NCBI RefSeq assembly: GCF_033842475.1
Contig: NZ_JAWXYB010000018.1
Coordinates: forward strand, 2,029,501-2,093,500
DNA: 64,000 nucleotides
Source: Acidiphilium acidophilum
Lineage (GTDB): Bacteria > Pseudomonadota > Alphaproteobacteria > Acetobacterales > Acetobacteraceae
Direction: 5' to 3'
The stretch's first letter is position 1; each line of letters opens with the position of its first letter. Below the pieces are notes generated by a model that was not told the origin of the DNA, did not search any database, and was given only the letters and a program-made list of their open reading frames with translations. This document shows positions 1-19,034 of the stretch, piece by piece. The translations under genes and the position numbers were made by a program.

Positions 1-1
1 G

Positions 2-3264: not shown

Positions 3265-3310
3265 TGGTGCTGTCAGAGGGAATTGAACCCTCGACCTCCT
3301 CATTACCAAT
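3265..3310. repeat. attL: 46-bp tRNA-Thr 3'-end duplicate
   Basis: This stretch is identical over 46 bp to 18989-19034. It carries the CCA end, T arm and part of the anticodon arm of tRNA-Thr on the minus strand, but the 5' half is missing, so it cannot be a functional tRNA. It is the displaced host 3' end left by integration. Confidence 0.92.
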
Positions 3311-3332
3311 TAGATGATATGGGTGTTTCAGG

Positions 3333-3470
3333 ATGATGCCCTATGTTTCAGACTGTCCATTGCACTGAAGTTTTCTCTTGCTTTTAGCGAAAATACCTCC
3401 TAATTATAGGCCCGGATTGTTCCAGATTATTTCCTCCTATCGGAACAAACATGATGCCCCAATGATGCCC
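3333..3470. promoter_or_regulatory. Left arm-type sites, ATGATGCCC repeats
   Basis: Three direct copies of ATGATGCCC lie at 3333-3341, 3451-3459 and 3462-3470. The last two are spaced 11 bp apart, one helical turn. A matching set lies inside the right end (18876-18930). Direct repeats flanking the core on both sides are what arm-type binding sites of a lambda-type integrase or its excisionase look like. The last two lie just upstream of the integrase start, so they could also serve in autoregulation. Confidence 0.5.
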
Positions 3471-3488
3471 CGGATCGGAGAAACCGAA

Positions 3489-4697
3489 ATGAAATCCCGA
3501 ATCACAGACACGGCGATAACAGCGGCGGTTAGGAAGGCTACCGAGACCGGCCAACGCATTGAAATTGCTGATGCTGCGCTTCGCGGCCTGCGCTTGAGGG
3601 TCACGCCGACAGGCTCCAAGGTCTGGATATTGGGAGCACGCGATGCTGCTGGCGCGCCTCGCCGGTTCACGATCGGCCATCACCCGGCAATAGGAATAGC
3701 GGACGCACGCGACGCTGCGCGGAAACTCCGGGAGCGCGTGAGGGAGGGGTTTGACCCTATAGACGACGCTCGCCAGCGCCGCGCCGAGGCGGAGGCTGCG
3801 AGAGAGAACGTCAATACCCTCTCGGACCTGATCGCGCACTACGGCGCAAAGCAAGGTGGCAAGCTGAAATCTTGGCCGGAATATCAGGGTGCAATCCGCC
3901 GCGTGTTCGGCCCCTTGCTGCCCATGCCCCTGAGCAGGGTGACGATCGGTAGTTTGCAGATGGCGGCGGATCGATACCAGGCGCAGCAGCAGGCCGCGAG
4001 CGCGGTTCGGTGCATCCGTCCACTGCTGAAATGGGCGAGCGCACCGGGACGCAAATACGTCACTGCCGACCTCGCCGATATCCGTGTTCCGGCGACCATC
4101 GTGAAGCGGGACCGGGTGCTGACCGATGATGAGTTGCGGCGCATCCTGCCGGTGCTGAGGGCCGATAACCGCCCGTTTGCAGCCTGTATGCGGTTTTTGC
4201 TCTTGACCTGTGCTCGACGCGACGAAGCGGCATATGCCAAATGGGGGGATATTGATTTCCGGGCAGCAACATGGCTGATCCAAGACACGAAAAACAAGCG
4301 CCCGCACCTCGTTCCGCTATCTCGCCAAGCCATCGACCTCGTTGCCTCAATTCGGCCAGATGACGTGGCGGCGGATGCGCTGATCTTTGCGACTTGCACT
4401 GGCAAACCATTGGGAAATTGGGACAAGAGCACCAAGCAACTATTCACCGCAACGGGCACCACGGGCTGGACCCGCCACGATCTACGCCGCACCGCCGCAA
4501 CGAAAATGGGGAAGCTGGGCGTCGCACCCCACGTCATCGAAAGCGCTCTGAACCACGCCAGCGTTCATTCCCCTCTTGCATCGGTTTACAACACCGCTCG
4601 GTATGAGGCCGATGTGGCGAAGGCACTGCAACTATTGGCCGACGCCCTCGACGGCATCGAACAGGGCGGCGCACAAATCGTGCCTATGCGAGCATGA
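3489..4697 (+). CDS. int: Tyrosine recombinase/integrase of the element
   Basis: A 402-aa P4-type integrase. The N-terminal DUF4102-like domain (residues about 1-90) contains LRGLRLRVTPTGSKVW and FTIGHHPAIGIADAR. The catalytic domain shows Arg in TCARRDEAAYAKWGDIDF, HDLRRTAATKMGKLGV (HxxR), LNHAS, and the Tyr nucleophile near VYNTARY. The ATG at 3489 is chosen because GGAG lies 8 bases upstream; a TTG at 3378 in the same frame would add 37 residues of unlike sequence. The gene sits directly inside attL, the usual place for a tRNA-targeting integrase. Its stop overlaps the next start by 4 bp (ATGA), so the two genes are probably co-translated. Confidence 0.93.
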   Translation: MKSRITDTAITAAVRKATETGQRIEIADAALRGLRLRVTPTGSKVWILGARDAAGAPRRFTIGHHPAIGIADARDAARKLRERVREGFDPIDDARQRRAEAEAARENVNTLSDLIAHYGAKQGGKLKSWPEYQGAIRRVFGPLLPMPLSRVTIGSLQMAADRYQAQQQAASAVRCIRPLLKWASAPGRKYVTADLADIRVPATIVKRDRVLTDDELRRILPVLRADNRPFAACMRFLLLTCARRDEAAYAKWGDIDFRAATWLIQDTKNKRPHLVPLSRQAIDLVASIRPDDVAADALIFATCTGKPLGNWDKSTKQLFTATGTTGWTRHDLRRTAATKMGKLGVAPHVIESALNHASVHSPLASVYNTARYEADVAKALQLLADALDGIEQGGAQIVPMRA

Positions 4698-5062
4698 CCG
4701 ACGCAGTAAAGGTGGCGCTCGCCCGCTTCAATCAGCATCATGACCCGTTATTCGACAAGATTATTGACGGCGTTCTACGTCAATTTTCAGATCAGCATGG
4801 CGCGGCTAAGAGTCAACGCGAGTATTACGAAATGCGGGCATTGGAAGCGGAAGATGCCACGCACGAGGTGAGGCATATATGGCGGAAAGACCCGGAACTA
4901 CGAAAGCGATTGCTAGACAAAGCCAAGAGCATAAGAAACATCAGGCATCGGCGCTACTCTGAGGATCAGTGGCGCACCGCCATACTGGGTCTAGGGATTG
5001 CTTACACGAGAGGAATGTATTTGCCTCCTGGCCGATCTGGCGGGGAGGTAAAACCGGACGGC

Positions 5063-6345
5063 CTCAGGAATCCCCCCATTTTCCATAGGTCCAGGTATTG
5101 CGCCGATTCGCTGCGATTCTCTACCAAGCGTTGGAATGCATGGATGAGGGTGGATCATGGGAATTGCAGCATCGAAAAAGCGTGATGGTGGGCGGTTGAA
5201 GGACATCCGCGCATTCATTGACGAGTTGTATGCCCACGATCTCCACGCCAAACGCGTTGACTCCCTGTCTGCTGCGACACTGGGCGTGATGACCGGCGCG
5301 TCGCTCGCCGTCGCGATGATCGGTCAGGCGTTGGCACAGGCGCGCGGGCTGGTGACCAAGCACGCGATCAAGCAGGTTGATCGCATGCTCAGTAACGAGA
5401 GTATCGACGTCTGGGAAAGCTTCGCCCGTTGGGTACCGCATCTGGTGGGTTCGCAGACCGACATCGTCGTTGCCATGGACTGGACGGATTTCGACGGCGA
5501 CGATCAGGCAACGTTGGCGCTCAACCTGGTGAGCAAGCATGGCCGGGCGATGCCTCTGTTGTGGCTGTCGATGTGGAAAGAGGAATTGAAAGATCAGCGC
5601 AACGCCATCGAGGATACTTGCCTGCGCCGCCTGTCGGAGGTTGTCCCGCCCGGCTGCCGCGTGACCATCCTGGCCGACCGCGGCTTCGGTGACCACAAGC
5701 TGTTCGCGTATCTTACGGAGCTTGGCTTTGCCTATATCATTCGCTTCCGCGGCAACATCCATGTCACCGATGCCGCAGGCGAGACGCGAACCGCGGCGGA
5801 CTGGGTCGGCAAATCGGGCCGGGCGCGCAAACTGCGTGGTGCGCGCGTCACCGCCTCGCACGCCTATCAGGTCGGTGCCGTGGTGTGCGTACATGCGCGT
5901 GACATGAAGGAGCCGTGGTGCCTGGCGAGCAGTGACGCCGTGGCGTCTGCAGGGACATTGATCAAGCAATATTCCCGGCGCTGGACGATCGAACCCAGCT
6001 TCAGGGACGTCAAGGATTTGCGTTTTGGGATGGGGATGGCTGAGATCCGCATCGCCGAACCAGAGCGGCGCGATCGGCTGCTGCTCATCAGCGCGTTTGC
6101 GATGGCGCTGCTGACCATGCTCGGGACGGCAGGCGAGAGCCTGGGAATGGATCGACAGCTCAAGTCCAACACTTCGAAGACCCGCTCACACTCGTTGTTC
6201 CGTCAGGGGTGCATGCTCTATGAATTGATCCCGAACATGCCGAAGCACCGGCTACTGCCCCTGATGCGGCGGTTCACGGAAATGCTGCGCAGCAGCGGCA
6301 TATTCGGCAATTCCATGCCGGCTACGTAATGAGGGGATGAGTGAG
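5063..6345 (+). mobile_element. IS4-family insertion sequence, 1283 bp
   Basis: The left end begins CTCAGGAATCCCCCCATT. The right end, read as reverse complement, begins CTCACTCATCCCCTCATT. The two terminal inverted repeats match at 14 of 18 positions. The element is flanked by the 9-bp direct repeat CCGGACGGC (5054-5062 and 6346-6354), a target duplication of a size known for the family. One transposase gene fills it. The duplication is exact and the interrupted frame is reconstructable, both signs of a recent insertion. Confidence 0.9.
5157..6329 (+). CDS. IS4-family DDE transposase
   Basis: A 390-aa transposase that cuts and rejoins the ends of its insertion sequence. The DDE triad is visible: D108 in AMDWTDFD, D175 in ILADRGFGD and E280. 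The last is part of the IS4 YREK signature, Y273-x2-R276-x3-E280-x6-K287, in YSRRWTIEPSFRDVK. The length fits the family. The start ATG lies 94 bp inside the left inverted repeat and the stop 16 bp before the right end. The frame is intact and no residue of the active site is missing, so the enzyme is predicted to be active. Confidence 0.93.
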   Translation: MGIAASKKRDGGRLKDIRAFIDELYAHDLHAKRVDSLSAATLGVMTGASLAVAMIGQALAQARGLVTKHAIKQVDRMLSNESIDVWESFARWVPHLVGSQTDIVVAMDWTDFDGDDQATLALNLVSKHGRAMPLLWLSMWKEELKDQRNAIEDTCLRRLSEVVPPGCRVTILADRGFGDHKLFAYLTELGFAYIIRFRGNIHVTDAAGETRTAADWVGKSGRARKLRGARVTASHAYQVGAVVCVHARDMKEPWCLASSDAVASAGTLIKQYSRRWTIEPSFRDVKDLRFGMGMAEIRIAEPERRDRLLLISAFAMALLTMLGTAGESLGMDRQLKSNTSKTRSHSLFRQGCMLYELIPNMPKHRLLPLMRRFTEMLRSSGIFGNSMPAT

Positions 6346-6645
6346 CCGGACGGCGACAGTTTTACTGCTATGGTAAATCTGTTCAAAGCTATAATGGACC
6401 CTCATCGGAGCGATATCGACCGAGTTCTGCGAGATGTATTGGCGGATAACTCCGCAATATTTTTGGAAATACTTGACCGTGTTCAGTTCCCTGAGCGGTT
6501 CCCTGAGCCCGCGTGGGGGTTTCCTCGGAATAGCTGGATACCAGAATAGTTCGATACCGACACGAACAGCGGGAAAAGTCCCTTTTTTTCCCTGACGTTC
6601 CTGAATAATTTGGCTCCATCGACAACACAGAGATGGAGTTCATCA

Positions 6646-6879
6646 ATGTCTACCGCGCCATTACAAGTAAATACGGCCATCTACCAGCAGCCCATCACCG
6701 CGACCATTAAGGGCGTGAGAGAACTGACCGGGTGGACGCATAGTGAATGTTACCGCCGACTGGCCGCTGGCGATATCAAGGCGGTGAAGCAAGGGCGGCG
6801 GACCTATGTTATTGTTTCGTCCGTTCGCGAATACTTGGAAAACCGGCCCGTCGCGACCTTTAATCGCAAAACCGCGTAA
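6646..6879 (+). CDS. AlpA/excisionase-like HTH protein
   Basis: A 77-aa protein. The ATG at 6646 has GGAG 8 bases upstream; an in-frame TTG at 6610 would add 12 poorly conserved residues. Residues about 20-65 form a short winged-helix/MerR-type HTH (IKGVRELTGWTHSECYRRLAAGDIKAVKQGRR) followed by a wing-like strand (TYVIVSSVREYLEN). Proteins of this size and shape beside an integrase and ahead of a replication gene usually act as excisionase or AlpA-type activators. A strong hairpin follows the gene. The exact role (excision, activation or both) cannot be read from the sequence. Confidence 0.7.
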   Translation: MSTAPLQVNTAIYQQPITATIKGVRELTGWTHSECYRRLAAGDIKAVKQGRRTYVIVSSVREYLENRPVATFNRKTA

Positions 6880-6882
6880 AAA

Positions 6883-6912
6883 AACCCCGCCGGCATGGAC
6901 ACCAGCGGGGTT
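6883..6912. terminator. GC-rich hairpin after the HTH gene
   Basis: The stem AACCCCGC/GCGGGGTT (8 bp, 14-nt loop) is preceded by a run of A. On the minus strand that run becomes a T tract after the hairpin, so the clearer terminator faces left. On the plus strand the T tract is poor and attenuation is more likely. Confidence 0.45.
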
Positions 6913-7003
6913 AATCGGAATAGCCTATCATCACCGAAATTGTGATAGCAGTTACCGATTACTTTTGCAAGGTTTCTAAACCGGTTTCTCGAAAGAGACC
7001 GCT

Positions 7004-9286
7004 ATGACCTACATCCACCCTACCGACCCGAACGACGAGCCGCCAGCGTGGCTGGATGTGCCGGACGACGCATACGAGGCCGATGCCCCGGAGGCGCTGG
7101 CCGGGGCGGACGAAAGCGCCCTCGACAAGCCGCTTGCCGTCACGTTTTTCGCGGACGCTTTCGCCAAGACAAAGAGCGAAACAGAGATTTCGCTTCGTGA
7201 TCTAGTCGAGCGGGTGCGGGATACCACGGCCCCGACGAAGGGCGGACTCCCCTGGCTCAAACTGGCACGGTTCGGTGATCAGCGCACAACACCAAAACCG
7301 CCCGCGACAATCGGCTCGCTGCGCCATAACGCAAACGTCTTGGCGATCACCGGCATCGAAGCGGACTATGACGGCGAACAGATTGCGGTCGATGACGCCA
7401 TCGAATCCCTCGCGATGCGCGGCATAGCGGCCATGGTCTACACATCACCCAGCCACACGCCCGATACGCCAAGGTGGCGGGCTTTGGCTCCCCTCTCGCG
7501 TGAACTGCCCCCGGACCAGCGTAGCCGCCTCCTGGCGCGGTTAAACGGCGCGCTAGGTGGCGTCCTGAGCGGGGAAAGCTTCGCGCTTTCGCAATCTTAT
7601 TTTTACGGCAGCGTCAATCGCTCGCCATCACATGAGGTTCATCTAGTTGAAGGCCAGTTCATCGATTTGCTCGACGAACTCGACGAAGGCGCGATCAACA
7701 AACCCGTCAAATCATCGGCGCCCCCAGCCGACGCGCCGCGCACCACGCCGTCAGAGCGGATCAATGATCGGCGCATGTCCGCCTTCATCGACACCTTGCT
7801 CGCCAATGTCCGCACCGCCCCCGATGGCACCAAGCATCACACGGTTTTGCGTAACGCGAAATCTCTTGGCGGGGTGCAGCACCAAGCAAAATTCACGGAT
7901 GGCGAGGCGGTCGATTGGATCGTCAAGGCGCTCGAAGATGGCGGCGGTGATGTGCAGGATTGGAGTGCGGCGCGCAAGACGGCGCAAGATGGCCTAAAGG
8001 CGGGCCGCGCGTCGCCTCTCGACCTTGGCCCGGATCGACCGAGGCCGGAATATCAGGCCGATGTAAGCGCCATCATCAACAAGGCGCGGGCTGCGCATGA
8101 GGCATACCACGCCGATGATCCGGGGCCGGATGCCAAAGCCGAGACGGATGGCGCGAAGCAATCGGAACAGTCCACGCAAGACGATCGGAGCACCGCCGTA
8201 AACATGCTTTGCGCACAGGCATGGCTCGACATGGATATCGCCCCGCCAGACCGCCTTCTCGGAGATTTGCTGACTACAACGAGCCGCATATTCCTTGTTG
8301 GCCGCACCGGCCTCGGGAAAACTCTGTTTAGCATGGCGCTTGCCGCAGGCATCGCTTCGGGAACAGGCTTTCTTCACTGGAAATCGTATCGAAAAGCAAA
8401 GGTTTTAGTAATCGACGGCGAGATGCCCGCTGAACTCATTCAGGTTCGGTTGCGGGAGGCGATGCGCCGCGCAAACGGAACGATACCACTAGAAAATCTA
8501 ATGCTGTACGGGCGCGATATAGATGACCGTTTGGCATCCGCCATCCCCAGCATCGGTAAAATGCAGCCTCTCAACACCGAAGCCGGAGCCAAATGGGTTG
8601 CGAACCTGATTGATGTGATCGGGGGGGTTGATGTCGTTATCTTCGACAACGTGATGAGCTTGCTTATCGGCGATCAGAAAGACGAACTCGCCTGGAACGC
8701 CACCCTTCCTCTGGTCCAATTTCTCACAAACAACCAGATCGGCCAAGTCTGGATGGACCACACCGGCCACGCAACTGACCGCCAATATGGTTCAAGTACT
8801 AAAGCCTGGCGCTTTGATGCGGTAGGCATAATGAGTGCTTTACCCGAGGCCGATCTGGCGGACGGCGAAGTCGGGTTTAATCTCAGTTTCGACCACCCAG
8901 GCAAAGCCCGCAGGCGCACCCCCGCAAACTGGAGGGACTTCGAGACGGTGAAGATCACGCTGTCTGATGATCAGTGGCGGGGGGCTCTGCCCACGCAGGC
9001 CAGCGTCAAAGCCGGTAAGCTCGTCGGCAAAATCAAAGACTATTATGACGCGTTCAACGACGCCCTCTCGATCACAGAGACGCCCGGCAGCACCACGAAA
9101 TCAGTTTGGTTCGGTGAATGTGTGCGCGTCGGCCTCGCCGAAGCAATCCATCCCGATGACGATTTTAAGGCGAAAGACGCCAAGCAGCGCAACTTTAGGG
9201 CGCACATGAGCAAGCTCAAGGCGATGAAATTAATCGGCATCGACGGGGAAATCGTCCACGATTTGAGGGTAAAAAAGTGCTCGTAA
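7004..9286 (+). CDS. Primase-polymerase-like / RepA-like helicase replication protein
   Basis: A 760-aa two-part protein. The N-terminal part (about residues 40-230) resembles phage and plasmid PrimPol-like domains: GIEADYD with acidic pair D121/D123, then MVYTSPSHTPDTPRWRALAPLS and FALSQSYFYGSVN. The second part is a RepA/AAA_25-type hexameric helicase ATPase with Walker A GRTGLGKT (433-440), VLVIDGEMPAELIQ and a Walker B strand VDVVIFDNVMSLL. The last 80 residues look like a winged-helix DNA-binding tail. The likely role is initiation of autonomous replication of the excised element; the iteron cluster begins just downstream. The helicase part is clear, and the PrimPol assignment rests on motif shape only. 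Confidence 0.8.
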   Translation: MTYIHPTDPNDEPPAWLDVPDDAYEADAPEALAGADESALDKPLAVTFFADAFAKTKSETEISLRDLVERVRDTTAPTKGGLPWLKLARFGDQRTTPKPPATIGSLRHNANVLAITGIEADYDGEQIAVDDAIESLAMRGIAAMVYTSPSHTPDTPRWRALAPLSRELPPDQRSRLLARLNGALGGVLSGESFALSQSYFYGSVNRSPSHEVHLVEGQFIDLLDELDEGAINKPVKSSAPPADAPRTTPSERINDRRMSAFIDTLLANVRTAPDGTKHHTVLRNAKSLGGVQHQAKFTDGEAVDWIVKALEDGGGDVQDWSAARKTAQDGLKAGRASPLDLGPDRPRPEYQADVSAIINKARAAHEAYHADDPGPDAKAETDGAKQSEQSTQDDRSTAVNMLCAQAWLDMDIAPPDRLLGDLLTTTSRIFLVGRTGLGKTLFSMALAAGIASGTGFLHWKSYRKAKVLVIDGEMPAELIQVRLREAMRRANGTIPLENLMLYGRDIDDRLASAIPSIGKMQPLNTEAGAKWVANLIDVIGGVDVVIFDNVMSLLIGDQKDELAWNATLPLVQFLTNNQIGQVWMDHTGHATDRQYGSSTKAWRFDAVGIMSALPEADLADGEVGFNLSFDHPGKARRRTPANWRDFETVKITLSDDQWRGALPTQASVKAGKLVGKIKDYYDAFNDALSITETPGSTTKSVWFGECVRVGLAEAIHPDDDFKAKDAKQRNFRAHMSKLKAMKLIGIDGEIVHDLRVKKCS

Positions 9287-9317
9287 ACCGTAACAAAGCT
9301 CCGTTAGTATGGCTGTA

Positions 9318-9494
9318 TCGCAACTGTATCGCAATTCTAAGCCACGCTAACAATTTTCGCTTTTTCGCAATCCTCGCAATCCTCGCAACTGGCTCGCAAC
9401 CGCCCGCAACTGGCTCGCAACTGGCTCGCAATTGCGAGTTTGCACATACCCTCGCAACCACGCAACGCGCATCTATAGATGCGCGTAGTTGCGA
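9318..9494. repeat. Iteron-like TCGCAA cluster, candidate replication origin
   Basis: TCGCAA or a one-base variant occurs at 9318, 9329, 9365, 9374, 9383, 9394, 9404, 9415, 9426 and 9452, mostly every 9-11 bp in one orientation. Inverted copies lie at 9432 and 9489. Three copies extend to the exact 11-mer CTGGCTCGCAA (9389-9399, 9410-9420, 9421-9431). Helically phased direct repeats directly downstream of a replication gene are typical of iteron origins. Most of 9287-9734 has no convincing gene, in keeping with an origin region. Confidence 0.6.
9465..9486. repeat. 22-bp perfect palindrome beside the iterons
   Basis: The half-site ACGCGCATCTA is followed at once by its exact reverse complement with no spacer. 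CTCGCAAC lies on both sides in inverted orientation, so the larger region is also nearly symmetrical. A spacer-free palindrome suits binding by a dimer or cruciform extrusion at an origin more than a transcription terminator. Confidence 0.6.
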
Positions 9495-9564
9495 GAGTGC
9501 CGGGGGCGTTGCGGGGATGGTGAGGTGGGTGATGAAGAGAACCCCAGATCACCTCACACTGATC

Positions 9565-9595
9565 GGTGTGGGGGGCGTCACCTCCCCCCTACACC
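9565..9595. other. Stable hairpin between iterons and small-gene operon
   Basis: GGTGTGGGGGG pairs with CCCCCCTACACC across a short loop (one mismatch). It precedes the first small gene by about 140 bp. No T tract follows, so it may be a processing or origin structure rather than a terminator. Confidence 0.35.
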
Positions 9596-9734
9596 ACGCA
9601 TACGACAACCGGATTACGCATTGGGTAGTAGCCCCGCACGTCACCCCGCCACCAACCCCAAAATACTTCGATATCGAATAGTTCGGCATCGAACGATTAT
9701 CCCCTGCAACCTTAACCTGATTGGAACCTATGCG

Positions 9735-9944
9735 ATGAAACGTGAACAGTTCGAAGAGGCAGTGAAGCAACTGAACTTCGACAACGGCGGATTTCGGTCT
9801 GCCCTGATCGACGTATGCGACACTGCTGCAATCGCCCGCAAATGGCTGCTCGATCACTACGACACCCACACCGCATCCGATGCAATCGCCCTGACTGCCT
9901 TGGTGGTCGCCCAGCGCACCCGCGTTCAAGGAGCCGGGGCATGA
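9735..9944 (+). CDS. Small hypothetical protein, first of an overlapping gene string
   Basis: A 69-aa protein starting at ATG 9735, acidic and helical (EQFEEAVKQLNFDNGGFRSAL, then IARKWLLDHYDTHTASDAIALTALVV). An in-frame open stretch upstream from 9489 runs through the repeat region and is unlikely to be translated. Its stop overlaps the next ATG (ATGA), the first of four such overlaps that point to one mRNA with coupled translation. The family is not recognised. Confidence 0.55.
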   Translation: MKREQFEEAVKQLNFDNGGFRSALIDVCDTAAIARKWLLDHYDTHTASDAIALTALVVAQRTRVQGAGA

Positions 9945-11143: not shown

Positions 11144-11184
11144 GCGGGGGGCGGATGGGGAACCCCAAGCCGCCCCGCCCTTTG

Positions 11185-11415: not shown

Positions 11416-11430
11416 AATTGACGTAGCATC

Positions 11431-11662: not shown

Positions 11663-11688
11663 TGTATTACCTCGAAGGTTGTAATACA
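11663..11688. promoter_or_regulatory. Likely operator of the ribbon-helix-helix regulator
   Basis: A perfect inverted repeat, TGTATTAC and GTAATACA, with half-site centres 18 bp apart ends 8 bp before the ATG of the gene at 11697. Spacing of about two helical turns suits two dimers of a CopG/Arc-type protein. Its place over the ribosome-binding region suggests autorepression. Confidence 0.55.
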
Positions 11689-11696
11689 TACAGGGA

Positions 11697-12002
11697 ATGG
11701 CACAGACAAAAACACTGATTAGCGTCCGGCTCGACAACCAACTCCTTAGGGAGATGGACGGGATTGCGAAGGCAACAAAGCAAAGCCGAAGCTGGCAGCT
11801 TGAACAGGCGGTCGGTTTCTGGCTCGCGAGCAATCGCCCGGTAAACGCGGCTGGCTTCGCAGTCGGGCACGACTTCGGTGACGATGAAAAGGCCGATCAA
11901 ACACTCGCCCGCATCTTGAACGTGACTGTCGAGCAACTCGAAGCCGCCCGCGCCGAAGCGATGAACCCCGAAAACCCCAGCCCGAAAGACACGCAACGAT
12001 GA
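11697..12002 (+). CDS. Ribbon-helix-helix (CopG-type) DNA-binding protein
   Basis: A 101-aa protein. The N-terminal 45 residues have the ribbon-helix-helix pattern: a beta strand with alternating residues (TKTLISVRLDNQLLREMD) and two helices (GIAKATKQSRSWQLEQAVGFWLA). The rest is acidic. Such proteins act as dimers on short inverted repeats, and one lies just upstream (11663-11688). The stop overlaps the next ATG (ATGA), so it is co-translated with the 291-aa gene. It could be a copy-number or lysogeny-type regulator, or the antitoxin-like half of a pair, though the partner does not look like a toxin. Confidence 0.72.
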   Translation: MAQTKTLISVRLDNQLLREMDGIAKATKQSRSWQLEQAVGFWLASNRPVNAAGFAVGHDFGDDEKADQTLARILNVTVEQLEAARAEAMNPENPSPKDTQR

Positions 12003-12874
12003 ATACCTCCGAAATCGCCCGAATGATGCATAACCTCAAAAAGTCCAGTCAGGCGCTCCGCGAATCCGAACAGGCGCTCGATGTCTGGTCTGGCGCGCCT
12101 TTGCCATCAGGCCCCAGCTACGGCCCACCACAATCCGCATCTGGTGGTGGCGCTGCCCGCATGATCGGCGATTACTCGAACCCGGCTCCGCAGCATGGCG
12201 CGACCGCGACGGTCGAACAGCTTTCGCGCGATCTGGGCTCGGTGCTCGTGACGATGCGTGGCATGGAGCAGTCGCAAAAAGCCTTGCAGGATATTGTGGT
12301 TTCGCTGATCGCCGCCAAGGCGAAGGCCGACGCCGAAGCCGATGACGACGACGACGACGACGACGACGATCTGCGCGACGCCGCCCGGCGCGAAAAAGCC
12401 AGGGCACGGCTCCGCAAGGCCGCCAAATCGGGCAACACCGAACAGGCGCTGAAAAGTGTGGATGTCCTGCTCGGCTCCATCGCCGTCATCAATTCGGATG
12501 TCAAAACGATGATGGCCGATCTAACACGGCTTGCCACATCAGGTGGGCGTCAGATGGGCGGTGTCGCCGTGCAAAAATCCGACTTTTCTGCGGTCGATCA
12601 GGGTGGCATCCTGGTCCGTGATCGCTTTACCGGCGAGGTGCGTAACAGCAACGATATTACCCCCACCATCCGGCGCGTTGTCGCCAAAAGCGGCGCAATC
12701 TTCGAGAGCGTTGCCAAATCGGTTGCGATGCTCACCGAACCCACTGATCGGGAGCGCGGTGCGACGATTTTGCGGATGATCGAAAGCGGACGCATCGACG
12801 ATCGCCACATCTGCGTCGCAACCGAAGCGGCAAACGGCACTGTCCGCACCGCCCTCGCTCCACTGTTCGCCTAA
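11999..12874 (+). CDS. Hypothetical protein with poly-Asp tract
   Basis: A 291-aa protein translated from an ATG overlapping the upstream stop. It has an N-terminal helix, a long helical middle (VLVTMRGMEQSQKALQDIVV) and a run of ten Asp encoded by GAT/GAC codons at 12341-12370. A basic helix follows (RREKARARLRKAAKSG), giving sharply separated charges. The C-terminal third is mixed alpha/beta. The repeat-codon tract could vary in length. I do not recognise the family. Its place after a regulator and before the tail-like gene suggests a structural or scaffold-type role, which is a guess. Confidence 0.6.
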   Translation: MNTSEIARMMHNLKKSSQALRESEQALDVWSGAPLPSGPSYGPPQSASGGGAARMIGDYSNPAPQHGATATVEQLSRDLGSVLVTMRGMEQSQKALQDIVVSLIAAKAKADAEADDDDDDDDDDLRDAARREKARARLRKAAKSGNTEQALKSVDVLLGSIAVINSDVKTMMADLTRLATSGGRQMGGVAVQKSDFSAVDQGGILVRDRFTGEVRNSNDITPTIRRVVAKSGAIFESVAKSVAMLTEPTDRERGATILRMIESGRIDDRHICVATEAANGTVRTALAPLFA

Positions 12875-12991
12875 CGGTTTGTTACCAGTTCGGCGGGTTG
12901 CAGCATACCGCCGATACGCCGCCGCCAGAGGGTCCGTGATTTCATCAATCTGGCGGCGGCACCCCTCACCAACATATAGGAGCCGCACGAC

Positions 12992-15724
12992 ATGCCCACG
13001 ATTAACCTGAACGGCGCGGGCGGCGGCAAGGGCGGCAATGGCGGCTCCGGTGGCAAGCAGTCGGCGGTAGCGCGGGCGTGGCAGAATTTAATCGAGAACC
13101 CATCGGTATCGAGCGCGGCTGATTTCCGCATTGCGTGGCAGAACAGCCCGGTGGCCGATCAGATTTTCCACATGGGCCGCGCGTCGAGTTCGCCGGGGTC
13201 GAAGGATAAGTTCGCGGCGGCGATCAAGGCGTTGCGATCTGTCCCTACATCGTCGGGGCCGCAGGGGATTCCGCGCCTGACGTATCAGCCGATGACGCCA
13301 CGCTTGAACGCGATGCACAAGGTCTACGCGGGCCAGGTGGGGACGTTCGGGCGCGGGACGATCACCATAGATCAGGCAGGCGTCGCCTATCCGCACAAGG
13401 GCGGCTTGCCGGCGCGCATCCCCGGCACTGGCTTTACGATGGTCGGTGGTGGTGGTGGACGTGGAGGTGGTGCAAACTTCTACTCCGGTGCTGGTGGGAC
13501 ATACCCCGAGCGTGGCGGCGTGCCGGCGCTTTACAATCAGAGCCGGGCGCTCGTTCCGACGAAGCGGATTGAAACCGCGCTGGTAAAAATCGAGCGTGCG
13601 ACGGAATCCAGCGCCCGGACGGACAAGGTTATCGCGGGCAAGCTGGCCGGTGGCGGTGGGTATTCCGGCAATTACGACAAGCCGGACTACAGCGCGGCCT
13701 ACGACATCCCCGGCACGCTGGCGGGGCAACGGGCAGCGGCACGGAAGGCGGGGGTGCGCTATCGAGCACCCACATCGAACTACGGCAGGCACACCAGCCG
13801 CCTCGCCGCCGCCCTTGGAGGGGGAGCCGGGGGGCAGCTTCTCGCGCGGGCAGCACATGGTGGCGGAGCCGGTATCGGGGGTCTGGTCGGCGGCGCGATC
13901 GGCGGCCTGATCGGGTCGGCGGCTGGCGGCATCGGGGCAGTGCCCGGCGCACTGGTCGGGGCTGATCTGGGCGCACTTGCGTCGAAGGCGGCTGGCGCTG
14001 TCGTTCGGGCACCGCAGGACTACGCCCGGTTCCTCGCCTCCGAACAGAAAGGCGCGGCACCTGTCATCGCCATGAAGAAATTGGCGGCTGGTCTTGGCCG
14101 CGCGGGGCACTACAGCCGCCATGCGCTCACTCATGATCTGTGGAAACGCGGCAATATCCCCCACGCATGGCAATCGACGCTGGGCCTGACGCCTCAATCG
14201 AGCGCGGCCCTCCTGCAACAAACGGGCGTTGTCCCGTCATCGCCATACGCGGCCCGGCGCATCATCGAGGGCAGCCGGATCGGTGCGTTTATGCCGGATG
14301 CAGGCGGGCTACCTAGCGGCGCTTGGCAGGGAGCAGTCGCATCGGGAATCCATGCCGGATACGTCCAGCCGGGGGTGAAGGGCGAGATGGGGCTTGCGAC
14401 GCAGCTTGCCCCGGCGCTCGGCGCGGCAAACAGGATGGGCGCATCGTCGCTGCAAATCTTGTCGAGCATGAACCGGAGCCTTGCGGCTCTTGCGGCGCGG
14501 GGTGGCACCGTGAACGCTGGCGGGGTGGGCTCGATCTTTGCCCGCGCCCTCGGAACCGGCTTGCCGGGTGGCCGCAACGGCTCGCTGGCAGGTGGCGCGA
14601 TCGACTCGGTTACAAAAACGCTCAATAGCGTGGGTAAGGACGCGGTATCGACGTTGATCCTGTCGCAGTGGACAAAGAAGAACGCGACTTCGATGAAGTC
14701 GTTGCAGGCCGGGATGCACCATTTATCGCCGGGCTTGTTCTCGGGAGAGATGAAAACAGCAGCCGGGCGCAAGATGCTCAAAGACGCCGTGGTCGAAGAC
14801 AAGGCGGGCAATCCGCTTTTTGCGACGGCGATAATGATGCAGATTCTAAGGTCGCACCCCAACGCCGCAGGGGCGATATTTCGGCATGGCGCGATCGGAA
14901 TGGCGGGCGTCGCCAACGAACCCGGCGCACTCGGACGGGCAAACCGGCTTGTTTACGGAGCCTTCGCGACGGGCGGCGCGTTAACTCCGGGAAGTATGAG
15001 CAAAGAACTGGTGATGGAAGGAAAAATACCCTACGCCGATGGCAAGTATTCCGGCAGCGTCGGACAAATGCTGCATAACCGGATATTGCTGGCACATCCC
15101 AACTACAAAGCATCGCGCGACACGATGTATCGCAAGCAACTTGCGTCGATGGGCTACAAGCCGGGCGATATCAACCGCATGATTGCGGCAGGAAAAGCAA
15201 CAGGCCGCTCGCCGCTCGAACTGGCTGTTCTGAACAAAACTGAGGGCGGTCGATACTCCCTGTCAAAGACAAGCGGCGTCGGTAACGGCGGGGGTGCGTT
15301 CCAGATGGAGCCCGGCACAAAGGCGGCGATGGGCAATCTGCATGGGCGGTATGGGCAGGCAGAGATGGCTGGCCGTTACCTTGATCGACTGCACCGTTTG
15401 CACCCAAACGCCAGCCCCGCCAAGTTGATGGGGTATTACGAAAGCGGTCCGGCAGGAAACCCACACGATCGCGATTGGGAGGTGGCGGGTGGCGCGTTGA
15501 ACCGGATATTGCCGGCCCGCACATTGCGGAACCAGAGCGCAACCGGGCAGGCCGGGATGGCCGGCGGATCGGATGCATTCACGATCTGGAATGAAAAGGT
15601 CGTTCACTCGGCCACGCTGATGAACACCCTGGATACCGCCGTGAACAAACTGACAGGCTCGTTTCAAAAAATGAACAAAACCACGCCAGCAACCCCGGCT
15701 CCGCGAGCCCGGCCTGGACTTTGA
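12992..15724 (+). CDS. Large Gly/Ala-rich protein with lytic-transglycosylase-like motif
   Basis: A 910-aa protein with AGGAG before the ATG. The N-terminal 230 residues are Gly-rich. Residues about 275-335 form a hydrophobic Gly-zipper stretch (GAGIGGLVGGAIGGLIGSAA). Near the C-terminus NKTEGGR, with E751, and GNGGGAFQMEPGTKAAMG (F770 onward) read like the ESGG...GAxGLMQxMP pattern of SLT-type lytic transglycosylases. Later text LHPNASPAKLMGYYESGPAG fits the same fold. Tape-measure and internal virion proteins combine these traits to open peptidoglycan during DNA entry. No other tail gene is present, so the role in this element is unclear. Confidence 0.65.
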   Translation: MPTINLNGAGGGKGGNGGSGGKQSAVARAWQNLIENPSVSSAADFRIAWQNSPVADQIFHMGRASSSPGSKDKFAAAIKALRSVPTSSGPQGIPRLTYQPMTPRLNAMHKVYAGQVGTFGRGTITIDQAGVAYPHKGGLPARIPGTGFTMVGGGGGRGGGANFYSGAGGTYPERGGVPALYNQSRALVPTKRIETALVKIERATESSARTDKVIAGKLAGGGGYSGNYDKPDYSAAYDIPGTLAGQRAAARKAGVRYRAPTSNYGRHTSRLAAALGGGAGGQLLARAAHGGGAGIGGLVGGAIGGLIGSAAGGIGAVPGALVGADLGALASKAAGAVVRAPQDYARFLASEQKGAAPVIAMKKLAAGLGRAGHYSRHALTHDLWKRGNIPHAWQSTLGLTPQSSAALLQQTGVVPSSPYAARRIIEGSRIGAFMPDAGGLPSGAWQGAVASGIHAGYVQPGVKGEMGLATQLAPALGAANRMGASSLQILSSMNRSLAALAARGGTVNAGGVGSIFARALGTGLPGGRNGSLAGGAIDSVTKTLNSVGKDAVSTLILSQWTKKNATSMKSLQAGMHHLSPGLFSGEMKTAAGRKMLKDAVVEDKAGNPLFATAIMMQILRSHPNAAGAIFRHGAIGMAGVANEPGALGRANRLVYGAFATGGALTPGSMSKELVMEGKIPYADGKYSGSVGQMLHNRILLAHPNYKASRDTMYRKQLASMGYKPGDINRMIAAGKATGRSPLELAVLNKTEGGRYSLSKTSGVGNGGGAFQMEPGTKAAMGNLHGRYGQAEMAGRYLDRLHRLHPNASPAKLMGYYESGPAGNPHDRDWEVAGGALNRILPARTLRNQSATGQAGMAGGSDAFTIWNEKVVHSATLMNTLDTAVNKLTGSFQKMNKTTPATPAPRARPGL

Positions 15725-15735
15725 AGGAGCACACC

Positions 15736-16344
15736 ATGACGAAACCGATCACGAAACAAAAACGCACGGCAGCCCCCTACGAGCTAAACATGGACGTTGT
15801 GCCGCCGTTCGATCCCGGGAAGCGCGTTGGCCGTGCCCCAGCCCTTACGCCGCAGCGCGCCACGATCCTGTTCGACTATCTGCGTCGCGGTCACAGTCGC
15901 AACAGCGCGTGCGCGGCAGCAGGGATCAGTGTTTCGGTCTTCGGGAAATGGATCAGGGATTCCCGCGAACCTGATGCAGATGAATGGAAAATTGCCTTCG
16001 CCGCCGAAGTCGCAGCAGCGGATGGCAAGGCAGAAGAAAACATCCTCGGCGTCATCTTGGACGATATCTCGGCGGGTGGGGTGGAGAGCGCGAAATGGTG
16101 GCTCGAACGGCGGCGGCGCGAGGATTATGGGGTCAAAACCCATCTGATCAACGAAACGGTGGAGGCGAAGCCCGATCCAGCGTTCCAGGCCAAGATCGAA
16201 CGCGCAAAGGATGCAGCGAGCATCCAGCGCGAGATCGTGCTCATGCTGAACCGTGAGCCGGACAAAGCGAAATGGCCGCCCGACTTGCGAGCGGCCTATG
16301 AACGCATGGTCAATCCGAAGTCGCTGACGATCGAGGGTGGTTGA
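15736..16344 (+). CDS. Terminase small-subunit-like DNA-binding protein
   Basis: A 202-aa protein. ATG 15736 has AAGGAG 7 bases upstream, which settles the start over an in-frame codon at 15721. Residues about 35-75 form a HTH (LRRGHSRNSACAAAGISVSV then FGKWIRDSREP). The following AFAAEVAAADGKAEENILGV and AKWWLERRRREDYG match the usual layout of phage small terminases that recognise packaging sites. No large subunit is nearby. Satellites often carry only the small subunit to redirect the helper phage packaging motor; that role is inferred. A generic DNA-binding protein is the alternative. Confidence 0.65.
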   Translation: MTKPITKQKRTAAPYELNMDVVPPFDPGKRVGRAPALTPQRATILFDYLRRGHSRNSACAAAGISVSVFGKWIRDSREPDADEWKIAFAAEVAAADGKAEENILGVILDDISAGGVESAKWWLERRRREDYGVKTHLINETVEAKPDPAFQAKIERAKDAASIQREIVLMLNREPDKAKWPPDLRAAYERMVNPKSLTIEGG

Positions 16345-16347
16345 TCA

Positions 16348-16611
16348 GTGAGCGCGACGAAACCCGGCCTACAGCCGCACCCGAGTGACGCCGAAGCCCT
16401 GCTCGAACTGCACCAGATCGCGGAGGATCGGTTTGCCCGGCCCTCTCACAGAGTGGAGGCGCGGCGCATCCTCAAAGCCTACGCTAGCGCCACGTGCCGC
16501 CAGCACCAGCGCGACGCCCTCGCCGGGGTGGAGGTGGAGAAGGAGCCGCTGCCCGCGAACGCGGTGATGCCCGATATCAGGGATGAGGCGCGCGATTGGC
16601 CGTGGGCGTAA
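16348..16611 (+). CDS. Small hypothetical protein after the terminase-like gene
   Basis: An 87-aa protein from a GTG only 3 bp after the preceding stop. It is helical and charged (SDAEALLELHQIAEDRFARP, then VEARRILKAYASATCRQHQR) and ends in an acidic tail (PDIRDEARDWPWA). The tight spacing suggests the same operon as the terminase-like gene. It overlaps the start of the Rha-like gene by 29 bp. The family is not recognised. Position alone suggests a packaging accessory factor. Confidence 0.5.
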   Translation: MSATKPGLQPHPSDAEALLELHQIAEDRFARPSHRVEARRILKAYASATCRQHQRDALAGVEVEKEPLPANAVMPDIRDEARDWPWA

Positions 16612-17032
16612 GGGGGCTTCAAGTTATAAAGACCCTTGGTTCGTCCGCGACATCGAAAGCCTATTGGAGACGCCCCCAAATCTGGGGACGTCCAATAAAT
16701 CAATGGGTTACGACGTGGCGGAGGTGTTTGAAAAGCGGCACGACAACATTGTCCGCGACATCGAAAGCCTGTTGGAGCCCCCCTCAAATCTGAGGGCAGC
16801 CAATAAATCAATGGGTTACGACGTGGCGGAGTTGTTTGAAAAGCGGCACGATCACGTGATGCAGAGCATTGGCGCTTTATTGGAGCCCACCCAAGATTTT
16901 GGGGCGGCCAATAAATCAACGGGGACAGGTCAACGCAATTCTGCGTTCATTAATGATTCCAAGGGTTTACCAGCCACCTCAAATCTGAGGAGACCCAGCG
17001 CAATTTTGCGCCGTTCAAAATCAAGGCCTTAA
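16583..17032 (+). CDS. Rha-like protein built of tandem 36-residue repeats
   Basis: A 149-aa product. The unit GYDVAEVFEKRHDNIVRDIE followed by SLLE matches the DNA-binding motif of phage Rha-type regulators (VAExFxKRHDxVxRDIxxLL). It occurs as one partial and two fuller copies with an exact 108-bp period (16643, 16751, 16859). After the third unit the sequence becomes irregular and basic. Tandem HTH units are unusual for Rha, which normally has one copy followed by a C-terminal domain. The DNA also forms a hairpin at the same point of each unit. It may be a real multi-site regulator or a decaying repeat array; the start codon is uncertain. Confidence 0.5.
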   Translation: MRRAIGRGRKGASSYKDPWFVRDIESLLETPPNLGTSNKSMGYDVAEVFEKRHDNIVRDIESLLEPPSNLRAANKSMGYDVAELFEKRHDHVMQSIGALLEPTQDFGAANKSTGTGQRNSAFINDSKGLPATSNLRRPSAILRRSKSRP

Positions 17033-17115
17033 GCAAGGGTGTCGGAGTTAACGACACCCTCTAAGGCTGTGCGCCCCCCGCACACCCTCTAAGGGTCCTC
17101 AGACTGTGCGGACCC
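16674..17115. repeat. Array of nine short hairpins
   Basis: Perfect stems with small loops lie at 16674-16687, 16781-16796, 16890-16903, 16932-16947, 16977-16990, 16998-17011, 17036-17060 (9-bp stem AGGGTGTCG), 17068-17084 and 17093-17115. Several share the loop AATC while the paired stem bases differ on both sides (CCCTCA/TGAGGG, CCTCA/TGAGG, CCCAA/TTGGG). Pairing is kept although sequence changes, which suggests selection on the structure. The first six lie within the Rha-like frame and the rest beyond it. Confidence 0.6.
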
Positions 17116-17380
17116 ATCCGAGCGCGCCCTGTTCACGCAGCGCCGCAAAGAGGCTTACGAGGCGCTGCATCCGGAGACGCGGAATGGCGGGGATCGTCGC
17201 GGACCAGATTGCCAAATTGGCGAACTGAAAAATGCCGACCGCTTCACCGCCGACACCGCAACCCGCACCGGCCAGTCCGAACGCGCCGTTCAGCGCGACG
17301 CCCATCGAGGCTCCAGGATCAGTGCGGATGTCCTGTCAGAGATCAAGGGGACCGAACTCGATAAGGGACCAAGGGCTTGA
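17093..17380 (+). pseudogene. Remnant of a ParB-like phage protein
   Basis: An open frame without a start codon follows a stop at 17090 and ends at 17378-17380. Its text (ERALFTQRRKEAYEALHPET, then DRFTADTATRTGQSERAVQR and ISADVLSEIKGTELDKG) closely follows the central part of ParB/Srx-type proteins common in alphaproteobacterial phages and islands. The N-terminal ParB nuclease-like domain and the C-terminal end are absent. It is therefore a fragment about 95 codons long. It lies directly behind the hairpin array, suggesting deletion or rearrangement there. Confidence 0.65.
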
Positions 17381-17538
17381 CACCAAGCGCCGCCCACGGC
17401 AGCATCAGACCCGGAGCTTGAACTCTCCTAAGCGATAGCGGTCCGCACCGATACAGCGGATTCCGCTCATACATCCGGGGGCATCATGCGTATGTCCAAT
17501 GGGGCAACCCTAAAGGCATGATGGCCCGTCTATCGCCG

Positions 17539-17574
17539 GGTGTTCAACCCCCGGAGTCGCGCGGCTTGAACACC
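17539..17574. promoter_or_regulatory. Inverted repeat before the terminal operon
   Basis: GGTGTTCAA and TTGAACACC form a perfect 9-bp inverted repeat with an 18-bp spacer, ending 38 bp before the ATG at 17613. It may be an operator or leader hairpin of the three-gene operon that follows. The rest of 17381-17612 shows nothing else that I can support. Confidence 0.4.
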
Positions 17575-17612
17575 GACGCTCTCCGGCAATATGGAAGCGA
17601 TAGGAGCCCGCG

Positions 17613-17789
17613 ATGCAGCCCGCACGCGATACGACAAACACATCACCGAACCTCGCCACAATCCGCGACACCCTCGACCGGCAAGTGTCCGAACTCCGCG
17701 CACTGACCGCTTCGCCGGGGGAACGGGCTTGGCTGGCACAGATCGCGACGCAGGCGATTGAGCGTGGGCTGGGAGGGGTGCAGCCATGA
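17613..17789 (+). CDS. Small hypothetical protein, first of terminal operon
   Basis: A 58-aa protein starting at ATG 17613, with a GGAG-type ribosome site (TAGGAG) 8 bases upstream. The sequence is helical (NLATIRDTLDRQVSELRALT and ERAWLAQIATQAIERGLGG), likely a short coiled coil. Its stop overlaps the next ATG (ATGA), which supports translation. The family is not recognised. Confidence 0.5.
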   Translation: MQPARDTTNTSPNLATIRDTLDRQVSELRALTASPGERAWLAQIATQAIERGLGGVQP

Positions 17790-18184
17790 ACCGCCGCAAG
17801 ACCCTCGCTGGCCTCGCCGCTGGCACCGCCGCCGCGATCATGGCACCGATCACCGCCCACGCCAGCAACGCCGATGCCGAACTCATCGCCTTGTGCGCCA
17901 AGTTCGACGCGAACGAACGGCGCTATCTTTCTTACTACTCGGGTGGCGAGAACGAGATCACCGACGACGATGAGCGGGATGCGGTTGCCTTCCCCATACA
18001 GGATCAGCAACACGCCCTTGCCGAACAGATCACTGCCCATCGCATCACCACCCTCGCCGGATTTGTGGCCGTAGCGCGAAGCCTCGGTCTATGGGATTCG
18101 CAGATCGGTGAACCCGACGAACACGGTTGCATCAACGAGCAGCTTGTCTCGATGCTGGTACGGGATGCGAGGGCAATCTCATGA
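17786..18184 (+). CDS. Hypothetical protein with Tat-like N-terminal signal
   Basis: A 132-aa protein. The N-terminus MNRRKTLAGLAAGTAAAIMA followed by PITAHAS has twin Arg, a hydrophobic core and an AxA-type cleavage site, so it may be exported; the twin Arg could indicate Tat. The rest is acidic and helical (LIALCAKFDANERRYLSYY, ITDDDERDAVAF, ALAEQITAHRITTLAG). It overlaps both neighbours by 4 bp (ATGA), marking a coupled three-gene operon at the right end of the element. The function is unknown. Confidence 0.6.
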   Translation: MNRRKTLAGLAAGTAAAIMAPITAHASNADAELIALCAKFDANERRYLSYYSGGENEITDDDERDAVAFPIQDQQHALAEQITAHRITTLAGFVAVARSLGLWDSQIGEPDEHGCINEQLVSMLVRDARAIS

Positions 18185-18618
18185 CCCGGAACTCAATTCC
18201 CGCCGAACTCTTCGACGTTCTGGGCCAGATCGGCGAGATCGCCAGCATCATGCAGGATATCTCGGCGCGGGAGATCAGCGAAAACAAGCCGATCGCCGGC
18301 ACCGCCATCGACATGCTCGCCCGCCTGATCGCCAGCCACGTCGAGCGCGGCATGGAGTTTACACCGGACAGGGCAGTCAGTGCGACCGATCCGAAACCCG
18401 ACGACTACACCGCCCGGGCGGATTCAGCGTGGCCCGGCGGTCTGGATTTGCGGGGCCTACATGGCGCGCTGTCCGGGGTGGTCACCTGCCTGTGCGGCCT
18501 CCAAGACATGGCATCTGGCGTCGATCTGGATGGCGATGCGTTCGAGCCCTTGCTTACCACACTGACCCCTTGGCGCGATCGGACACTTGCGGCGCGGGAT
18601 ATTCTCGAACACGAGTGA
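18181..18618 (+). CDS. Hypothetical protein, last gene of the element
   Basis: A 145-aa protein. ATG 18181 overlaps the preceding stop; an in-frame start at 18127 lies inside the upstream gene and is not preferred. The sequence is helical and acidic (FDVLGQIGEIASIMQDISAR, AIDMLARLIASHVERGMEF, LRGLHGALSGVVTCLCGLQD). No known motif is recognised. A strong terminator follows at 18695, so this closes the operon before the right att site. Confidence 0.55.
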   Translation: MTRNSIPAELFDVLGQIGEIASIMQDISAREISENKPIAGTAIDMLARLIASHVERGMEFTPDRAVSATDPKPDDYTARADSAWPGGLDLRGLHGALSGVVTCLCGLQDMASGVDLDGDAFEPLLTTLTPWRDRTLAARDILEHE

Positions 18619-18694
18619 GTGACCGGCCCGATCCGGGATTGAGTGAGACGCAGAAGCGGCTAAGGTCAGTTGACGTGAAAACCCATAAAACTAG

Positions 18695-18722
18695 CGGCCC
18701 CCTAAACCGGGGCCGTTTTTTT
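18695..18722 (+). terminator. Rho-independent terminator of the element's last operon
   Basis: CGGCCCC pairs with GGGGCCG across a 7-nt loop and is followed by seven T. This is a textbook intrinsic terminator on the plus strand, 76 bp after the stop at 18618. The interval 18619-18988 otherwise holds only the right arm-type sites. Confidence 0.9.
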
Positions 18723-18875
18723 GTGCAAAAATTCCGCGAGGGGGTTGGCCGGTGTTTTGGGGGTCGACCGGTTCCTGTCCCCACCTCCCCACCCCATCGG
18801 CGCGTGATTGAGGTTTCGGAACAGGAGCTGATCGGCGTTTCGGAACGGGCCGTACTGGCGCTGATGGTGGCGGCG

Positions 18876-18930
18876 ATGATGCCCGATTGTCGCGGGCTAT
18901 CTCGCCGACTTTGATGCCCCAGTGATGCCC
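18876..18930. promoter_or_regulatory. Right arm-type sites, TGATGCCC repeats
   Basis: ATGATGCCC lies at 18876-18884, TTGATGCCC at 18911-18919 and GTGATGCCC at 18922-18930. The last two are 11 bp apart, exactly as the pair near attL (3451 and 3462), and share the following C and the A between them. Mirrored placement at both ends supports a role in integrase or excisionase binding. Confidence 0.5.
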
Positions 18931-18988
18931 CGTTTTGGATTGGGTCGGTTCAGGGGTGTGGAAAAGTCCCGTAACCCATTGAAAAGAC

Positions 18989-19034
18989 TGGTGCTGTCAG
19001 AGGGAATTGAACCCTCGACCTCCTCATTACCAAT
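18989..19034. repeat. attR: 46-bp repeat forming the 3' part of tRNA-Thr
   Basis: Identical to 3265-3310 over 46 bp; the match ends with T versus G at the inner side and A versus C at the outer side. Here the repeat is joined to the tRNA 5' half, so integration rebuilt a complete gene. Confidence 0.92.

Follow-up and report, generated by a model that had tools for sequence, protein, structure and literature searches.

Insertion site and gene content of the element

The 64-kb stretch of DNA analysed here (the window) lies within contig 18 of the 4.16-Mb genome of Acidiphilium acidophilum and carries, at positions 3265-19034, an integrated element that is likely to be a phage satellite. The element is bounded by an exact 46-bp repeat of the 3' end of tRNA-Thr(GGT), which accounts for 23 of the 50 repeated 24-mers in the window and one copy of which belongs to the intact tRNA gene (Table 1). 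An empty site was found in the same-species metagenome-assembled genome (MAG) G147, where the contig C291 joins window positions 1-3316 (96.5% identity) to 18982-19997 (97.1%) at a junction made of a single 46-bp repeat and an intact tRNA-Thr. Since this empty site is seen, the true limits of the unit are known, and the element is a clean insertion into tRNA-Thr of 15.72 kb, counting one repeat, with a G+C content of 60.0%, the flanking window positions 1-3264 and 19035-30000 together having 63.3%. Both the duplicated tRNA-Thr end and the adjacent integrase had been pointed out in an earlier interpretation made from the nucleotide letters (the sequence-only reading), and both were borne out.

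Gene content was judged from 20 open reading frames (ORFs) picked from the six-frame list, all compared with Pfam and PHROGs and ten each also with NCBIfam and with PADLOC. No capsid, portal or large terminase subunit (TerL) gene was recognised in these 20 ORFs, as had been claimed earlier for capsid and large terminase, and the gene taken at first sight for a small-terminase-like one matches a profile of the terminase small subunit (TerS); its start is probably the ATG at 15736. The integrase gene adjoins attL, the first of the two attachment (att) repeats, and a copy of an IS4-family insertion sequence (IS), with an imperfect terminal inverted repeat (14/18) and a 9-bp target duplication (5054-5062 and 6346-6354, read by eye), sits inside the ORF starting at 4694. 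The AlpA-like helix-turn-helix protein, also named earlier, does have matches, although they are weak; of the proposed PrimPol-helicase, the replication gene with its AAA_25 domain stands, while the PrimPol part is unproven. Matches to this replication protein at E 1e-20 or better were found in 26 of the 397 genomes of the family, its own included; the family means here the family genome sets, NCBI placing Acidiphilium in Acidocellaceae, order Acetobacterales. The CTCGCAACTGG-type direct repeats directly 3' of the replication gene are a plausible candidate for the replication origin, and the 92-bp block is crossed by small mechanical ORFs only.

Table 1. Features of the element and of its integration target (window coordinates)
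Feature	Position	Strand	Evidence
attL, 46-bp copy of the tRNA-Thr 3' end	3265..3310	.	exact repeat; single copy at empty site L073
Tyrosine integrase	3378..4697	+	PF00589 1.5e-18, PF13356 8.5e-17, phrog_1 4.2e-47
IS4-family insertion sequence, transposase 5157-6329	5063..6345	+	NF033591 6.8e-67
AlpA-like helix-turn-helix regulator, weak	6610..6879	+	PF12728 4.6e-5 (below cut-off), phrog_66 8.7e-4
Replication protein with AAA_25 ATPase	7004..9286	+	PF13481 7e-19; weak primase/helicase PHROGs
Iteron-like direct repeats, candidate origin	9382..9434	+	repeat families D4, D6
Ribbon-helix-helix (CopG-type) regulator	11697..12002	+	PF01402 3.4e-6
291-aa scaffold-like chimera	11999..12874	+	partial match to the gene preceding the C5 major head protein gene
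910-aa tape-measure-like chimera	12992..15724	+	partial match to the C5 906-aa protein
TerS chimera, ORF opens at 15721	15736..16344	+	phrog_4102 9.7e-19
87-aa ORF	16348..16611	+	kept beside TerS in L010, 80% identical
Truncated Rha-type modules, 108-bp tandem units	16583..17032	+	PF09669 1.8e-12, phrog_518 3.7e-10
92-bp block, apparently non-coding, candidate cos/pac or other helper-recognised site	18720..18811	+	blastn to C5
attR, 46-bp repeat within the intact tRNA-Thr gene	18989..19034	.	exact repeat
tRNA-Thr (GGT), intact, integration target	18989..19063	-	ARAGORN and Rfam

Segments shared with one phage contig

Searches with the 910-aa protein and with TerS both lead to one contig, JAQTXH010000010.1 of the Acidiphilium MAG STC_13 (51,972 bp; G006:C5, hereafter C5), on which the following genes were called with PHROGs and Pfam: primase, integrase, TerL (phrog_38, 9e-63), portal (1e-16), major head protein (3e-37), sheath (phrog_279, 1e-29), tail-tube initiator (PF23980, 1.4e-13), and baseplate proteins. 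By these calls C5 is a temperate contractile-tailed phage; its host assignment rests on MAG binning, and the contig may be incomplete. The C5 gene for a 906-aa protein comes after those for the sheath and a small virion protein and two further small ORFs, and ahead of the tail-initiator and baseplate genes with two tail-type ORFs in between, so that its product would be, by gene position, the tape-measure protein. The 910-aa protein of the element, for which nothing informative was found in Pfam, PHROGs, NCBIfam or PDB sequences, is read as tape-measure-like because this partner gene sits in the tape-measure position. It is the protein that had been described as a large transglycosylase-motif protein; that reading is based on a motif only, and the lysozyme-like reading of its C-terminal part is likewise a motif impression. 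A C5 gene for a 413-aa protein, in turn, lies between a weakly called head maturation protease gene and the major head protein gene, which it directly precedes, i.e., in the usual place of a scaffold gene, and it corresponds to the 291-aa gene of the element.

With blastn, the full window gave five hits to C5, and five of five lie inside the element. The first block, of 111 bp within the 291-aa gene (12149-12259), is 98% identical to C5 25468-25578, with two differences, and the same gene has a weak second hit in an acidic stretch (12309-12369, 77%). The second block (12992-13758, 90%) covers residues 1-256 of the 910-aa protein, where 246 of 253 aligned residues are identical to C5, whereas beyond this block 169 of 609 aligned residues are identical (28%), the two proteins measuring 910 and 906 aa in total. 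The third block (16195-16342, 91%) comprises the last 49 aa of TerS, 47 of them identical to the small-terminase candidate of C5. The fourth is the 92-bp block, 93% identical with one 1-base gap and inverted relative to C5 (8632-8542), which among 13 genomes of the genus is found in the own genome and G006 only. For this block, the idea of a special hairpin did not hold (z +0.88).

The three genes are alike in that a C5-matching segment passes, within an open reading frame, into a diverged one. When the 40 C5 proteins were compared with the element by tblastn (E 0.001), four matched, namely the small-terminase candidate, the scaffold-position and the tape-measure-position proteins, and the integrase, the latter being an unremarkable family match (30%); the C5 head, portal and TerL proteins gave no match in the element, and neither did three small C5 tail ORFs. 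As judged by these alignments, the morphogenesis genes of the element are chimeras of one phage. A candidate helper, matched in three genes and one further block, goes beyond what the sequence-only reading contained, and these matches on one contig may reflect a functional tie to a C5-like helper.

Selection on the shared segments

The TerS block differs from C5 at 13 of 147 nucleotides, 10 of them at third codon positions, with two conservative amino acid changes in 49 residues. In the tape-measure block, the 253 codons contain 43 nucleotide differences, distributed as 8, 3 and 32 over the codon positions and resulting in seven amino acid changes; the ratio of nonsynonymous to synonymous differences (pN/pS) for residues 1-228 against C5 is 0.14. 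Between the window and the related contig L010 (see below), pN/pS is 0.22 over 577 codons of the tape-measure-like gene and 0.40 for the 87-aa ORF. Because the differences in the TerS and tape-measure segments are mainly synonymous, these segments appear constrained, and the codon patterns demonstrate purifying selection on them since the separation from C5.

Relatives and distribution

A relative of the module is L010, a 3.6-kb contig (JAQTXO010000393.1) of the Acidiphilium MAG STC_15, which keeps the order tape measure (93% identical), TerS, 87-aa ORF and Rha modules. In its TerS, only 34 of 123 aligned residues of the N-terminus are identical to the element as against 44 of 53 at the C-terminus, and such a pattern would be expected if the N-terminus recognised the packaging site of its own element while a partner in common were bound by the C-terminus. 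L010 belongs to G454, which is apparently the same as G147 (same contig numbers and matches). An 88-bp stretch of 86% identity is also present in L010 (L010:3324-3411) and G006:C5 (16072-16159), where it belongs to a gene between TerL and portal, in the opposite orientation to its neighbours.

A profile of the two tape-measure-like proteins found matches in 4 of the 397 family genomes, which are the own one, G147, G006 and G249. The latter is of a different genus, and its tape-measure-like gene, of 826 aa (33% identity to the C5 protein over 266 aa), lies within a distantly related element of 11.8 kb (L101:108-11907). This element also encodes an 805-aa primase (phrog_1156, 2e-70) and, at one end, an integrase; PHROGs gave no structural gene in the ten ORFs scanned, and its putative limits are marked by a short 14-bp repeat, equal to the 3' end of a tRNA-Ser. 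The 156-aa protein encoded after its tape-measure-like gene was considered as a TerS and rejected (hhalign probability 6% against the TerS C-terminus). A further element of about 6.8 kb, L106:1037-7824 of G060, bounded by a 13-bp repeat at a tRNA-Ser 3' end, carries an integrase gene as well as a gene related to that of the AAA_25 replication protein, and is perhaps a minimal relative of the backbone.

The TerS query matched in 2 of 147 genomes and the scaffold-like query in 2 of 397, while the four-row tape-measure profile found, at the class level, 1 of 385 genomes, the own one; the family of such elements is rare in the genome sets searched. No tblastn match was obtained in phage GenBank records for the window TerS or for the tape-measure-like proteins of the window, C5 and G249, and the 14 plasmid records with matches had them over at most 51 bases each. 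In IMG/VR, the TerS query reached five contigs, over residues 35-136 only and at 28-32%; neither the tape-measure-like protein nor C5 TerL nor the TerS and tape-measure profiles had a relative there, and a 21-base stretch taken from the 92-bp block was absent. The C5 TerL query gave matches in 9 of the 13 genus genomes, being of full length in G006 only and of 25-33% identity over at most 222 aa in the other eight, the own genome among them.

Comparison with known satellites

Staphylococcus aureus pathogenicity islands (SaPIs) carry their own TerS. Like SaPI1 and other phage-inducible chromosomal islands (PICIs), the element is about 15 kb long and has att repeats, an integrase and a replication gene; the integrase and the AAA_25 gene of such a module are clear in it, the AlpA-like gene is weak, no match to a Stl-type repressor was obtained with Pfam and PHROGs in the 20 ORFs, and a packaging redirector of the PICI type is present as TerS. 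In contrast to SaPI1, it has a tape-measure-like gene, and its TerS and scaffold-like protein are near-identical in segments to one phage. CpmB of SaPI1 competes with the helper scaffold via a shared C-terminal motif, as described in PMC5644958, whereas the shared scaffold segment of the element is not C-terminal.

With P4-like satellites the element shares an integrase, an AlpA-like regulator, a replication gene of the primase type and a short site in common with the phage, as in the P4/P2 pair. However, its replication gene is of the AAA_25 type, it has its own TerS, and no match to the P4 alpha primase, Sid or Psu was found in the ORFs scanned (20 with Pfam and PHROGs, 10 with NCBIfam). The 16.8-kb Pseudomonas satellite AH14b, with an integrase, an AlpA-like regulator and a primase, is described as having two genes in common with its helper, one for tail assembly and one for a lipoprotein (PMC4936722). 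The former encodes tail assembly protein I, 71-74% identical, and the available text of that source mentions neither a chimera nor a satellite TerS.

The closest parallel for the tape-measure-like gene is found in the phage-inducible chromosomal island-like elements (PLEs) of Vibrio cholerae, since PLE1, PLE4 and PLE11 are reported to code for a tape measure, a chaperone and a hub of their own and to build chimeric contractile tails on the helper (PMC12987554, March 2026). The element is likewise integrated and would have its own tape measure, tape-measure-like by position and with no profile match. In the same paper it is stated that no other satellites had previously been reported with a tape measure, and that it is unknown how satellite tape measures enter helper tails, and the legend of its Extended Data Fig. 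10 refers to predicted tmp genes in PLE-like elements and in some capsid-forming PICIs (cf-PICIs). The view taken in the sequence-only reading, in which such a protein is unusual for satellites, has been overtaken by these genes. The tape measure of PLE11 is given there as 20% identical to that of the helper, with a length difference of 95 aa and accompanied by its own chaperone and hub, whereas in the element the first 256 residues show about 97% identity to the phage protein, the length is equal, and no tail chaperone or baseplate hub had a profile match in the 20 ORFs, such genes being easily missed. The tmp genes predicted in some cf-PICIs (PMC12987554) may be compared with the tape-measure-like gene, but cf-PICIs encode capsids, and no capsid gene was recognised in the element. 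The element is accordingly not assigned to PLE, P4-like satellites or cf-PICIs, and it would be an independent alphaproteobacterial variant. Among the titles and abstract openings listed for Acidiphilium, Acetobacteraceae, Acetobacter and Alphaproteobacteria, no description of such a satellite was found.

Interpretation and proposed mechanism

The element is likely an Acidiphilium phage satellite in tRNA-Thr, dependent on a C5-related contractile-tailed helper, the assembly line of which it would enter via three chimeric proteins. The satellite interpretation, proposed already from the sequence, is supported by the lack of a recognised capsid, portal or TerL gene in the 20 ORFs scanned and by the limits given by the empty site. 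On helper entry, the element would excise with its own integrase and replicate with its own AAA_25 protein, and the three chimeras, each consisting of a helper-near-identical segment and a satellite-specific one, would be inserted into the helper assembly line. The helper-type C-terminus of TerS would probably dock on the helper large terminase, the DNA-binding N-terminus being the element's own, and the packaging motor would thereby be redirected. The 291-aa protein, containing a part of the helper scaffold-like protein and shorter than it (291 vs 413 aa), would probably steer the capsid to a small size; at 15.7 kb, the element is about 30% as long as the 52-kb phage contig, itself possibly incomplete. 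In the 910-aa protein, the N-terminus and the overall length are of the helper type and the remainder is replaced, from which chimeric tails of helper length and different interior would result. Of this scheme, the sequences show the insertion, the gene content, the chimerism and the constraint on two of the three segments; the functional steps are inferred.

P2 and P4 have a common cos site. By analogy with this pair, the strongest candidate for a shared packaging site, at which DNA would be cut or recognised, is the 92-bp block. A general domain-swapped strategy, acting at packaging, capsid size and tail building by a helper-identical docking segment coupled to an own working segment, and with a shared packaging site, is proposed only tentatively, its chances being put a little below even.

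Several observations weigh against the satellite interpretation or the roles assigned within it. The names of the tape-measure and scaffold proteins are position-based; both are uninformative in Pfam, PHROGs and PDB sequences, and PHROGs gave no hit for the C5 small-terminase candidate. Further points concern the scaffold assignment: the protease call framing the 413-aa gene is weak (4.4e-5), the sole PHROG of the 413-aa protein is a single-strand DNA-binding protein (phrog_15004, 2.4e-8), the near-identical block is not C-terminal, unlike the agreement between CpmB and the 80alpha scaffold, the C-terminal 40 aa of the 291-aa protein are 37.5% identical (E 0.003), and the block, with 49 codons including its edges and pN/pS of 0.44, is too short to judge selection. 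Structure models of TerS and of the tape-measure C-terminal part were poor (predicted local distance difference test scores of 41 and 59), and a fold search with the TerS model against the PDB returned nothing at E 0.001. Excision, induction and packaging are predictions from the gene content. A C5-like helper was not found in the own genome, the sole TerL match there being partial and 33% identical, which is compatible with a satellite awaiting an incoming phage and makes C5 and the element a putative pair only. The L010 contig shows no more than 3.6 kb, and the tRNA-Thr site of the same MAG is empty, so that the L010 element would lie elsewhere or the population would be mixed. Finally, the IS4 copy inside one ORF and the truncated Rha ORF mean that this copy may be partly decayed.

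Alternative explanations

The strongest rival, although an unlikely one, is a deletion remnant, i.e., an ancestral tRNA-Thr phage that lost its capsid, portal, TerL and most tail genes. The interrupted ORF and the truncated Rha gene would suit such a history, relatives of the replication gene occur also in full phages, and on the IMG/VR contig L069 an alpA-like gene and the same type of replication gene are followed by TerS- and TerL-like ORFs (by eye). Moreover, the order scaffold, tape measure, TerS is preserved in C5 when it is circularly permuted to its prophage form, so that this order alone does not separate the two readings. Decay of the remnant type, however, is not seen in the tape-measure-like gene (pN/pS 0.14-0.22) or in TerS (2 of 49 aa changed), and the blocks shared with C5, differing mainly at synonymous sites, look unlike decaying remnants; L010 keeps the adjacency of tape measure and TerS and intact ORFs at about 10% DNA divergence, with pN/pS of 0.22. 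A deletion would also have to account for three separate in-frame junctions inside genes and for the 36 of 40 C5 proteins without a match in the element, and a further small element that carries a tape-measure-like gene is present in G249.

It is improbable that the element is a defence island, in which the chimeras would dock on the TerL, scaffold and tape-measure partners of the helper in order to poison assembly rather than to promote transfer. The same chimera data would be expected under it, and interference with tail assembly has been published as defence, as described in PMC11364771 and PMC10884400; yet pure defence would require no integrase, replication gene, own TerS or shared candidate packaging site, the equal lengths of the tape-measure-like proteins (910 and 906 aa) suggest function rather than poisoning, and PADLOC found no defence genes in the ten ORFs submitted to it.

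That the shared blocks are recent recombination scars between unrelated mobile elements, with no helper relation, is the least probable explanation and a very remote one, for although blocks of 90-98% DNA identity with sharp edges are what homologous exchange predicts, and the scaffold block by itself (2 differences in 111 bp) could be such an exchange, three of the four strong blocks are in frame in morphogenesis-type genes, two of these three have their amino acids nearly fixed with synonymous sites changed, and the rest of the 64-kb window has no match to C5.

Implications of the satellite interpretation

If the satellite interpretation holds, the element would provide an independent alphaproteobacterial satellite tape measure together with a candidate helper, its natural chimeras would indicate which parts of TerS, scaffold and tape measure serve for docking, and the way in which satellite tail parts enter helper tails would become directly testable. 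Under the more tentative domain-swapped strategy, the tape-measure chimera would show that the N-terminus and total length must match the helper while the C-terminal two thirds are free, and the element would, together with that of G249, define a family of satellites with tape measures in the bacterial family to which the window belongs. As a route to satellites and their helpers, a search for genes that are identical to structural genes over only a part of their length is suggested.

Other observations

The 108-bp tandem units in the element (window 16643-16966) and in L010 (L010:2596-2907) each code for a truncated Rha DNA-binding module and contain a short hairpin around AAATCTG or AAGATTT, the arms of which vary among the units yet mostly still pair (by eye); the units are possibly a regulatory RNA or a binding-site array. 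A 102-nt tRNA-Pro(cgg) at 38011-38112 was called by ARAGORN and not reported by Rfam at the gathering threshold, and it is either intron-bearing or a false call. At 30001-34000 of the window, the G+C content is 41-49% against a background mostly above 60%, with a strong change of GC skew at the edges, and this segment is a possible further island.

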